DNA of 64,000 nt from assembly GCA_031275405.1 (NCBI GenBank), contig JAISOV010000046.1, forward strand, positions 1-64,000. Reading direction: 5' to 3'. Source of the DNA: Clostridium sp. GTDB lineage: Bacteria > Bacillota > Clostridia > Lachnospirales > Lachnospiraceae. The position numbers and the translations under genes were made by a program. The notes beneath the pieces are model-generated. The model saw nothing but the letters and a program-made list of their open reading frames with translations. It was not told the DNA's origin and did no database searches. Positions 15,068 to 62,534 of this stretch are shown here, one piece after another (position 1 is the first letter of the stretch; each line of letters opens with the position of its first letter).

Positions 15068-15118
15068 ATTTCATCCCTGCCTTTCTTTTCTCTCTATGCG
15101 TCACCAATCATATAAGCT

Positions 15119-15205
15119 ATCGGAAGCTGCGAAGCGGCTTCTGATAAAAGGCGCCGCCCTTGCGCCGTTATTCGATTACAAGAAGCGGTTCCTGCTTCTT
15201 GTAAT
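15119..15205. repeat. Three-hairpin intergenic repeat (copy A, inverted relative to the 48.5 kb copies)
   Basis: atcggaagctgcgaagcggcttctgat-aaaaggcgccgcccttgcgccgtt-attcgattacaagaagcggttcctgcttcttgtaat; reverse complement aligns to 48499-48673. Confidence 0.8.
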
Positions 15206-15364
15206 ATATACAAAATCAAGCTGTTCTATTTCCTTTTCCCGCAGATCTTTTTGAGAAACCGCTGCGAGGCCATCCTGCGCCAAGCTGCTATTCCGCAGCT
15301 CTTGCCGCATTTCTTTTCACCATGGTTCATAAGCTTTAGAAACCCTTCCATAGGACGCTCCCTT

Positions 15365-47194: not shown

Positions 47195-47619
47195 CCGCAC
47201 TCCCGCCCGCTTTCGCTTCTTCCCAGTCCAAAGGCCGCCGGCAGCAGCTCCGCGAGAGAATGCTCCCGGAACTCGTCCGCGCTTCTGGCGGTCAGAACCC
47301 GGAAATCCCCTGCCGCAAATTCCCGCAGGACCTGCCGGCATATGCCGCAGGGATAGGCATACGCCGGAGGGTCTTCCCCGTCCGCGCCGCCCACGACGGC
47401 AATCGCCCGGAACGAGGTCTGTCCCTCGCTGACCGCCTTGAACAGAGCCGTCCGCTCCGCGCAGCAGGTCGCCCCGTAGGAAGCGTTTTCCACGTTGCAG
47501 CCCGTATAGACGCAGCCGTTTCCCGCCAGAAGCGCCGCGCCTACCAGATAACGGGAGTAAGGGGCATATGCCTTTTTCCTGGCGTCTATCGCGGCCTGAA
47601 TCAGTTCCCTGTCCGTCAT
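47191..47619 (-). CDS. cdd: Cytidine deaminase
   Basis: AYAPYSRYLVGAALLAGNGCVYTGCNVENASYGATCCAERTALFKAVSEG, PCGICRQVLREF. Confidence 0.96.
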   Translation of the reverse strand: MTDRELIQAAIDARKKAYAPYSRYLVGAALLAGNGCVYTGCNVENASYGATCCAERTALFKAVSEGQTSFRAIAVVGGADGEDPPAYAYPCGICRQVLREFAAGDFRVLTARSADEFREHSLAELLPAAFGLGRSESGRECG

Positions 47620-48455
47620 AATCCCCTTTCCGCCCCGAACTTTTCCAGGCTCGCCGTCACGAGTCTGGCGAACCTTGGCACCGCTTCGTCGGCGGCTTCC
47701 TGAACTTCTTTATGGTTCAAAGGATGTTCCGTCATTCCCGCCGCCAGGTTGCTGATACAGGAAAGTCCGCAGACCCTCATGCCCATGTGGTGTCCGGCGA
47801 CCGCTTCCACCGCCGTACTCATCCCTACCGCGTCCGCGCCGAGGGCGCGCAGCATACGGATTTCCGCAGGCGTTTCATAGGAGGGGCCGCTTAACTGCGC
47901 ATAAACGCCCTCCTGTAGGGGGACTTCGTTTTCCTTCGCCGCTTCCCGGATCAGGCTCTGTAATTCCAGATCATAGACATGGCTCATGTCCGGAAAGCGC
48001 GCGCCGAGCGCTTCGTCTTCCGGCCCGACCAAAGGATTGGGGACAAAGCAGGAAATATGATCCGTCAGCAGCATCAGGTCTCCCGGGCGAAAAGCCGCCC
48101 CCAGCCCGCCCGCCGCGTTGGTCAGAAACAGAACCTTCGCGCCAAGCAGCCCCATCAGCCGGATGGGAAGCACCACGTCCGAAACGCGGTACCCCTCATA
48201 AAAATGGACTCTCCCTTTCATGCATACGATAGGAAGCCTGTCCAGATAGCCGAACAAAAACTTCCCGGCATGTCCGGCAACGGTGGAAACCGGGAAGCCT
48301 TCGATTTCTTGATAGGAAACCACCCGCTCCGCCTTGAGCCGCTCCGCGTAGCCTCCCAGGCCGGAACCCAGCACAAGGGCGACCTGCGGACAGAAATCCG
48401 TCTTCCCGCGTATCTGCGCCAAACAGCCTGTCAGCTTTTCCATGACCGGATTCAT
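47616..48455 (-). CDS. Purine-nucleoside phosphorylase
   Basis: LVLGSGLGGYAERL, GHAGKFLFGYL, MKGRVHFYEGY, LTNAAGGL, YAQLSGPSYETPAEIRMLRALGADAVGMSTAVEAVAGHHMGMRV. Confidence 0.95.
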   Translation of the reverse strand: MNPVMEKLTGCLAQIRGKTDFCPQVALVLGSGLGGYAERLKAERVVSYQEIEGFPVSTVAGHAGKFLFGYLDRLPIVCMKGRVHFYEGYRVSDVVLPIRLMGLLGAKVLFLTNAAGGLGAAFRPGDLMLLTDHISCFVPNPLVGPEDEALGARFPDMSHVYDLELQSLIREAAKENEVPLQEGVYAQLSGPSYETPAEIRMLRALGADAVGMSTAVEAVAGHHMGMRVCGLSCISNLAAGMTEHPLNHKEVQEAADEAVPRFARLVTASLEKFGAERGL

Positions 48456-48498
48456 CCGCATTTCCCCCGTTTTCCCGTGGCTTCCGATAATTTCTATG

Positions 48499-48579
48499 AC
48501 AAGAAGCAAGGACGGCTTCTTGTCATCCAATTACGGCGCAAGAACAGCGCCTTTTATCGGAAGCTGCTTCGCAGCTTCC
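48499..48579. repeat. Three-hairpin repeat, copy B1
   Basis: acaagaagcaaggacggcttcttgtcatccaattacggcgcaagaacagcgccttttatcggaagctgcttcgcagcttcc. Confidence 0.9.
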
Positions 48580-48592
48580 AATAAGTTATATT

Positions 48593-48673
48593 ACAAGAAG
48601 CAAGGACGGCTTCTTGTCATCCAATTACGGCGCAAGAACAGCGCCTTTTATCGGAAGCCGCTCCGCAGCTTCC
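48593..48673. repeat. Three-hairpin repeat, copy B2 (94 bp after B1; 2 differences over 81 bp)
   Basis: acaagaagcaaggacggcttcttgtcatccaattacggcgcaagaacagcgccttttatcggaagccgctccgcagcttcc. Confidence 0.9.
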
Positions 48674-48863
48674 GATAATTTCTATTATATGCAATACCTT
48701 ATGAAAATGCAATTTTTTTTCATATTTTTTTGGATTTTATGGGTTGGAGGATGGTATCAGACATCTTGTTCTTATGGTCGCGCAAGGCTGTAATCGGAAC
48801 TACCGCTGCGGCCAAACAAATCCTTAGCATAGGCTTTCCTTTTTGTATCCATACAATCTTTTC

Positions 48864-49091: not shown

Positions 49092-49180
49092 AATTTACGA
49101 ACAAGATTCATCCCTGCCGTCAGAAGCGGGGATTTTTCAGTATCCATAAAAATGGCGGCAGATATGAGCCTTTGAGGGAA

Positions 49181-49206
49181 CTGTCAAAAGGTGTACCTTT
49201 TGACAG
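49181..49206. repeat. Perfect palindrome CTGTCAAAAGGTGTACCTTTTGACAG
   Basis: 12-bp arms with a 2-nt centre; related copy at 49368-49393. Confidence 0.85.
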
Positions 49207-49367: not shown

Positions 49368-49393
49368 CTGTCAAAAGGTACACCTTCTGGCAG
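49368..49393. repeat. Degenerate copy of the 49181 palindrome (CTGTCAAAAGGTACACCTTCTGGCAG)
   Basis: Same left arm CTGTCAAAAGGT, right arm partly decayed. Confidence 0.8.
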
Positions 49394-49460
49394 CCCCCCA
49401 AGGCCCAGACCTTCCGGCAGCCTCCGGGATACCCCATCTTATCTTAAAGGAGGATCATGC

Positions 49461-59046: not shown

Positions 59047-59107
59047 CCGTGTTTCTCCTTTGGTTTGATTGGATTACCGTTCTATTTTATCAAGCCCGGC
59101 AGCTGCG

Positions 59108-59154
59108 TACCATTGATTTGCCTTACAGCTTCCTTACAAAAACGTCACATAAGG
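59108..59154 (-). promoter_or_regulatory. Bce-type operator/promoter segment, copy 1, upstream of BcrA-like gene
   Basis: Minus strand CCTTATGTGACGTTTTTGTAAGGAAGCTGTAAGGCAAATCAATGGTA; TGACG-N4-TGTAA; 42 of 47 positions match copy 2. Confidence 0.75.
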
Positions 59155-62432: not shown

Positions 62433-62487
62433 AGAAAAACTCCTTTTTTTCTTTTTCGTTTTCAGGATACGTCTCCGTGCCGACATG

Positions 62488-62534
62488 TACCATCGCTTTC
62501 CCTTACAGTTTCCTTACAAAAATGTCACATAAGG
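62488..62534 (-). promoter_or_regulatory. Bce-type operator/promoter segment, copy 2, upstream of bceA-like gene and overlapping the kinase stop codon
   Basis: Minus strand CCTTATGTGACATTTTTGTAAGGAAACTGTAAGGGAAAGCGATGGTA; TGACA-TTTT-TGTAA. Confidence 0.78.

Follow-up and report, generated by a model that had tools for sequence, protein, structure and literature searches.

A 94-bp three-hairpin repeat of Lachnospiraceae, probably a family of non-autonomous mobile elements inserted at TATA

A 94-bp repeat that folds into three hairpins occurs both in tandem and as a single inverted copy in the window analyzed here, a whole stretch of 64,000 nt from Clostridium sp. (contig JAISOV010000046.1). 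It probably represents a family of ~94-bp non-autonomous mobile elements that is specific to the Lachnospiraceae, inserts at TATA, and is moved in trans by an enzyme reading the folded strand, this last part being one that we infer. The Lachnospiraceae are common gut and soil bacteria; if the reading is true, they would harbor in abundance a transposable element family defined by a conserved fold rather than by its letters. The insertion sites of such an element can be dated between sister species, and it would offer a clean system for finding its mobilizing enzyme.

Repeat units in the window

The array at positions 48,479 to 48,688 consists of two head-to-tail 94-bp units and the remnant of a third. 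The remnant (~48479 to 48498, plus strand) precedes the array and comprises the right end of hairpin 3 and the tail; its sequence, GGCTTCCGATAATTTCTAT, is present at 48479 to 48497 and corresponds to the right end of a unit (genome-wide search match G000:C40:48480-48497). Unit 1 (48495 to 48588, plus strand; 94.4 bits with covariance model R2), also recovered as a 94-bp direct repeat, contains hairpin SL1, ATGACAAGAAGC-AAGGACG-GCTTCTTGTCAT (48496 to 48526, plus strand; placed by folding and by covariation of its pairs), hairpin SL2, GGCGC-AAGAACA-GCGCC followed by TTTT (48535 to 48555, plus strand; folding and covariation of its pairs between genera), and hairpin SL3, TTATCGGAAGCTGC-TTC-GCAGCTTCCAATAA (48554 to 48584, plus strand; folding, covariation, and loop class). 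The GCGAAGC mini-hairpin of SL3 lies on the minus strand, opposite to the strand that carries GCGCC-TTTT. Unit 2 (48589 to 48682, plus strand; 85.3 bits with R2) has its hairpins, all placed by folding on the plus strand, at 48590 to 48620 (SL1), 48629 to 48649 (SL2 with TTTT), and 48648 to 48678 (SL3). The single inverted unit occupies 15113 to 15206 on the minus strand (85.3 bits with R2; inverted repeat).

These coordinates bear out what an earlier, sequence-only reading had described, namely a tandem with a partial third unit before it and an inverted copy at 15.1 kb. A recount of the units at 48499 and 48593 again gave 2 differences in 81 positions; the full repeat is 94 bp with the TATA junction counted, and the 81 bp compared in that reading are thus slightly shorter. 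The inverted copy was recovered independently, as was the 94-bp direct repeat, and spans 15107 to 15208 with 85% complementarity. The three hairpins per unit, also part of that reading, are the minimum-energy fold of unit 1, folded as DNA, and of unit 2, folded both as DNA and as RNA, whichever strand is taken; the z scores relative to dinucleotide shuffles were -6.0 to -9.1. For the 15.1-kb copy the z scores were -3.8 to -6.5, and its middle hairpin differs in the DNA fold of the element's plus sense. In every case, for the tandem units and the 15.1-kb copy alike, none of 200 shuffles folded as well as the element.

The array adjoins a minus-strand phosphorylase-superfamily gene (47616 to 48530 in its longest reading), and the inverted unit is flanked by a minus-strand short-chain dehydrogenase gene and a plus-strand open reading frame at 15251.

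Copies in the genome and in other genera

A search of the contigs of the source assembly (2.98 Mb, 59 contigs, 84% complete) gave ~50 unit copies at ~40 loci among the matches listed. These copies are single or stand head to tail in twos and threes, and several are at contig ends. Units are roughly 90 to 98 bp long and have no coding capacity; the 38 distinct full-length units gave an alignment of 107 columns, and covariance model R1 was built from own-genome units. With the covariance model, 9 of the 299 family genomes searched proved to carry the element, each from a different genus, so that 8 genera besides that of the source are represented. The family had been predicted to be mobile and dispersed with its three stems kept, and to have further copies in the genome and its relatives; both predictions held, given the ~40 own loci, the other genera, and sister species that are empty at some sites.

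A DNA pattern of the right half, run against one genome per GTDB species, gave at least 119 matching stretches from assemblies of Lachnospiraceae/Clostridiales, both named and unnamed. Among the matches listed, the named ones are Lachnospiraceae or relatives in the Clostridia and include Anaerocolumna sedimenticola, Anaerocolumna sp. MB42-C2, Lachnoclostridium phytofermentans KNHs2131, Clostridium sp. KNHs205, Acetatifactor muris, and a Hungatella metagenome-assembled genome (MAG), while some matched records are titled just Clostridiales, Clostridiaceae, or "bacterium." Carrier genomes have 17 to 131 model matches each among at most 150 candidates per genome, some of which are antisense cross-matches. 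The element is unevenly distributed in the genus of KNHs2131, with 28 to 35 matches in two genomes, one weak match in one, and none in two. In a class-wide search with strict filters, in which the best 10 candidates of each genome were scored, the source genome was the sole match among 391 genomes. Viral contigs yielded no match to the pattern, plasmids no blastn match to an array of A. sedimenticola, and phages no blastn match to the array of the window; the neighboring 727-amino-acid protein, used as a query, had no relative in the first genome scan.

Insertion at TATA

The unit layout can be written TATA-[TTAYnnGAA.. SL1 - linker - SL2 TTTT - SL3 ..GATAAGY]-TATA, and the flank logo reads TATA-TTAY on the left and AAGY-TATA-TTAT on the right. 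The right flank prefers TATATTAT (T.81, T.95, A.83, T.70), and the left flank just TA or TATA. Comparison of the flanks of KNHs2131 copies with sister genomes, and also in the reverse direction, provided three element-free alleles (L079, L080, and L320) that resolve the junction cleanly. At L079, the occupied allele CAATT-TATA-[ATTATCAGAAC...GATAAGT]-TATA-TTGAAG corresponds to the free allele CAATT-TATA-TTGTTG. At L080, GTAT-TATA-[TTATAGAAAC...GATAAGTT]-TATA-TAATATAAA corresponds to GTAT-TATA-TAATATAAG, a free allele with another insertion further on, and at L320, from the reverse direction, AGT-TATA-[TTATAGGAG...TTATT]-TATA-CTATAATTAC corresponds to GTAT-TATA-CTATAATAAC. Insertion at TATA therefore leaves TATA on both sides, where the element-free site has a single TATA, which is the picture of a target-site duplication. 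In head-to-tail arrays one TATA is shared per unit junction. The TATA junctions could arise by duplication of 4 bp at a favored target or, equally, by conservative recombination on a TATATTA core, two routes that sequence alone cannot separate.

Arrays and hairpin modules

Across carriers, arrays contain 1 to 6 units. In the source genome, mean identity is 94.6% within one array versus 79.3% between different arrays, which indicates that arrays grow or homogenize locally. Array length also differs between relatives: at locus L072 two units in one sister stand against one in the other, and the gap between genes read as cdsA and dxr (L160 and L162) differs between KNHs205 and the Anaerocolumna MAG. 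In that gap KNHs205 has three units and the MAG two, with the first unit 5'-truncated in both, and the two arrays together make a natural series in which array growth can be followed.

Modular exchange of hairpins also occurs: two versions of hairpin 1 (TAGGAAAC/GTTTCCTA and TGAAAAGC/GCTTTTCA), different in both arms, occur within a single array of otherwise nearly identical units in strain D16-51 (L167 and L187). Hairpin 1 is repeated at least 3 times without hairpins 2 and 3 at L011:1600-1705 (own genome, contig C23) and at L317:600-695 (G313:C547), in the latter case in 38-bp steps; at these two loci hairpin 1 is a sub-unit that amplifies by itself.

Conservation of the fold and the strand concerned

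In the own-genome alignment, two-sided changes were found at 12 of 31 pairs, with SL1 and SL3 covarying and SL2 nearly invariant. Between genera the stem letters are rewritten and the three-hairpin plan is kept. When 54 units were aligned with plain MAFFT, without fitting to the structure, 90.9% of cells paired and 24 of the 31 pairs had two-sided changes, so the paired changes looked for in the stems do appear when the alignment is made from sequence only. Cells changed on both sides numbered 200 in this alignment, versus 56 in shuffles and 16 to 40 in slid controls, and a structure-fitted alignment agrees with it on covariation.

The earlier suggestion that the structure is under selection fared less simply: the stems are indeed kept with two-sided changes, but some of these changes replace hairpin 1 as a whole within arrays that are otherwise nearly identical. 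Paired changes can likewise arise without selection, through template-switch correction of palindromes. Because hairpin 1 swaps and palindrome correction can mimic compensation, we regard a fold under selection as no more than plausible. A caution of wider bearing is that a functional RNA should not be assumed from strong covariation in the intergenic regions of bacteria.

Wobble pairs are more frequent as A.C, that is, as G.T on the minus strand, than as G.T on the plus strand (54 versus 29, p ~0.008), a modest asymmetry among events that were collapsed by genome and position and are not fully independent. Without the loop-proximal pairs the counts are 39 on the minus strand and 22 on the plus strand. 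The minus-strand fold is also the more stable one, and 28 of the 38 own copies have a hairpin 3 loop of GCTNCGC, which reads GCGNAGC on the minus strand; GCGNAGC sequences form a class of unusually stable DNA mini-hairpins. Together these features give a hint that the minus strand may be the strand recognized. Since wobbles, fold stability, and the hairpin 3 loop all favor the minus strand, they count against a reading in which the T-tract of the plus strand is the essential feature.

Gene context

Nearly all copies lie between called genes, with 11 inside an open frame. Neighboring genes are arranged in the same orientation as the element in 52 cases and opposite in 42, and are divergent in 36 and convergent in 26; there is no orientation preference. 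Because the four gene configurations occur at roughly similar frequency, a terminator or cis-regulator is a poor fit. Targeting to promoters was considered and rejected: individual copies at -10 boxes are striking, but a -35 box at 15- to 19-nt spacing is mildly and not significantly over-represented.

Search for a mobilizing enzyme

The Y1 transposase domain (Y1_Tnp, PF01797) had no match in the source genome, A. sedimenticola, MB42-C2, or the four carriers G310, G204, G160, and G313, while controls matched. The Y1-free A. sedimenticola and MB42-C2 genomes are complete, and of these two one has 78 and the other 32 model matches among those listed. The absence of Y1 transposases excludes a resident RAYT in these carriers. 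As recurrently linked genes we found just paralogues of generic kinds (ABC, kinase, transporter), together with an open frame running through the array itself. No autonomous parent with split ends was present in loci of at least 4 kb, and exact end patterns gave no distant left-right pair in the two complete Anaerocolumna genomes. Thus, the Y1, linked-gene, and parent-element searches produced no mobilizing enzyme.

Mode of movement and alternative explanations

Under the reading that we favor, an enzyme encoded elsewhere would recognize one strand in its folded, single-stranded form, probably the minus strand, on which the wobble pairs and stable GNA loops fall, and would either insert the element at TATA with a 4-bp stagger or recombine the TATATTA core with a TATATTA-like target. 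Arrays would afterwards grow and shrink through recombination between neighboring units, and tandem growth and duplication could raise copy number without transposition. A bolder version, which we put forward as speculative and rather doubtful, is that the transposition signal is the three-hairpin single-stranded fold and not the sequence, that the trans-acting recombinase is of a type new to repeats, and that small circular or single-stranded intermediates recombine at TATATTA; such intermediates would also account for the head-to-tail arrays.

An alternative that is possible, if unlikely, is a miniature inverted-repeat transposable element (MITE) of an ordinary DDE transposase, with degenerate inverted ends, TATA as a 4-bp target duplication, and hairpins that are palindromic end-binding sites. 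It would be in keeping with the TATA that flanks the insert on either side in three cases and with the weak similarity of the left and right ends (TTAYAGGAA versus, as reverse complement, RCTTATCRGAA); however, no larger element with both ends was recovered from the loci examined or, by exact end patterns, from the two complete Anaerocolumna genomes, no transposase recurs near the copies, and internal covarying hairpins would be superfluous for the ends of an ordinary MITE. The MITE-like character proposed earlier survives in the TATA target duplication and the small, non-coding unit; the ends are weakly inverted and are not the long terminal repeats of a classical MITE. The REP/BIME assignment proposed alongside it, with a TnpA-REP-type transposase to be sought, did not survive. 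An element of REP/BIME/REPIN type moved by RAYT (TnpA-REP, a Y1 HUH transposase) would explain intergenic hairpin repeats that form arrays and keep their structure, but Y1_Tnp is absent from all seven carriers, including the source genome and the complete genomes of A. sedimenticola and MB42-C2, and the copies have a conserved TATA(TTAT) flank and no GTAG or GTGG tag 5' of the hairpin, so this explanation was rejected as largely refuted and keeps hardly any probability.

Very improbable, too, is a structured RNA (5'-untranslated-region regulator, small RNA, or terminator) duplicated around the genome. Strong covariation, TTTT directly after SL2, and the position of some copies between promoter and start codon speak for it; yet the copies show no marked preference for either orientation or for any gene configuration, the wobble asymmetry favors the strand without the T-tract, -35 boxes at the right spacing are not significantly enriched, and Rfam has no matching family. 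We give as little credence to RNA-templated insertion by target-primed reverse transcription, which would explain why the 3' end is fixed, why first units are 5'-truncated, and why arrays form: truncations are indeed 5' in 37 cases versus 3' in 14 (n = 186 arrays), but the excess is not significant in the subset not picked by the 3'-end pattern (13 versus 5), and no linked reverse transcriptase was seen.

Relation to known systems

The element resembles REP, BIME, and REPIN sequences in being short, intergenic, and hairpin forming, with dozens of copies and composite arrays. It differs from them in having three different hairpins per 94-bp unit, repeated head to tail rather than alternating, in having TATA junctions where REPs have a GTAG tag, and in occurring in complete carrier genomes without Y1. 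With bacterial MITEs (ERIC, RUP, NEMIS, and MITEAba12) it shares a length of ~100 bp, a non-autonomous nature, an AT-rich duplicated target, and intergenic location, but it has no clear long terminal inverted repeats, forms tandem arrays, has no parent insertion sequence that we could find, and has stems that are rewritten between genera with the plan kept. The BOX elements of streptococci are built from modular units with internal tandem copies and stable folds. The element is similarly modular, tandem, and stably folded; its sequence is unrelated, its module order is different, and it is usually tandem as a whole unit rather than in one module.

IS200/IS605 ends and integron attC sites are likewise recombination sites read as folded single strands, in which structure is conserved more than sequence. 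In contrast to IS200/IS605, the complete carriers have no Y1 gene, and the TTAT preference of the right flank is unexpected under IS608-type targeting; attC R/L core boxes (RYYYAAC/GTTRRRY) were not visible by eye in the conserved ends. In Rfam 15, no family matched above its gathering score over the element in the window or at element loci from further genomes. A literature search, which most subscription papers lay outside, found no description of the element, and within the searchable papers the family is previously undescribed. A survey of noncoding RNAs in 50 genomes describes "Mobile/repeat sequence candidates" such as MRSC-65-2 (PMC11109978). As described there, MRSC-65-2 is also multi-copy, inconsistent in orientation, and supported by covariation in its structure, but it is a single long stem found in diverse phyla, whereas the element has three hairpins and is found in one bacterial family; this comparison covered MRSC-65-2, beside which the survey has 249 other candidates (PMC11109978).

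Other repeated sequences

Identical copies of the element are present at three contig ends of the source assembly (L032, L033, and L037, at ends of contigs C29, C19, and C50), and the outer side is identical where it is reached; here the element belongs to, or borders, a longer sequence that is itself multi-copy. The window also contains a near-perfect palindrome that is unrelated to the element and occurs twice, at 49176 to 49206 and 49368 to 49398 (ACTGTCAAAAGG.ACACCTTTTGACAG type), with 161 nt between the copies, which match in both direct and inverted orientation. Finally, a 48-bp direct repeat with 90% identity (GTACCATTGATTTGCCTTACAGCTTCC...) is located between called open reading frames at 59107 to 59154 and 62487 to 62534, with ~3.4 kb between its copies.
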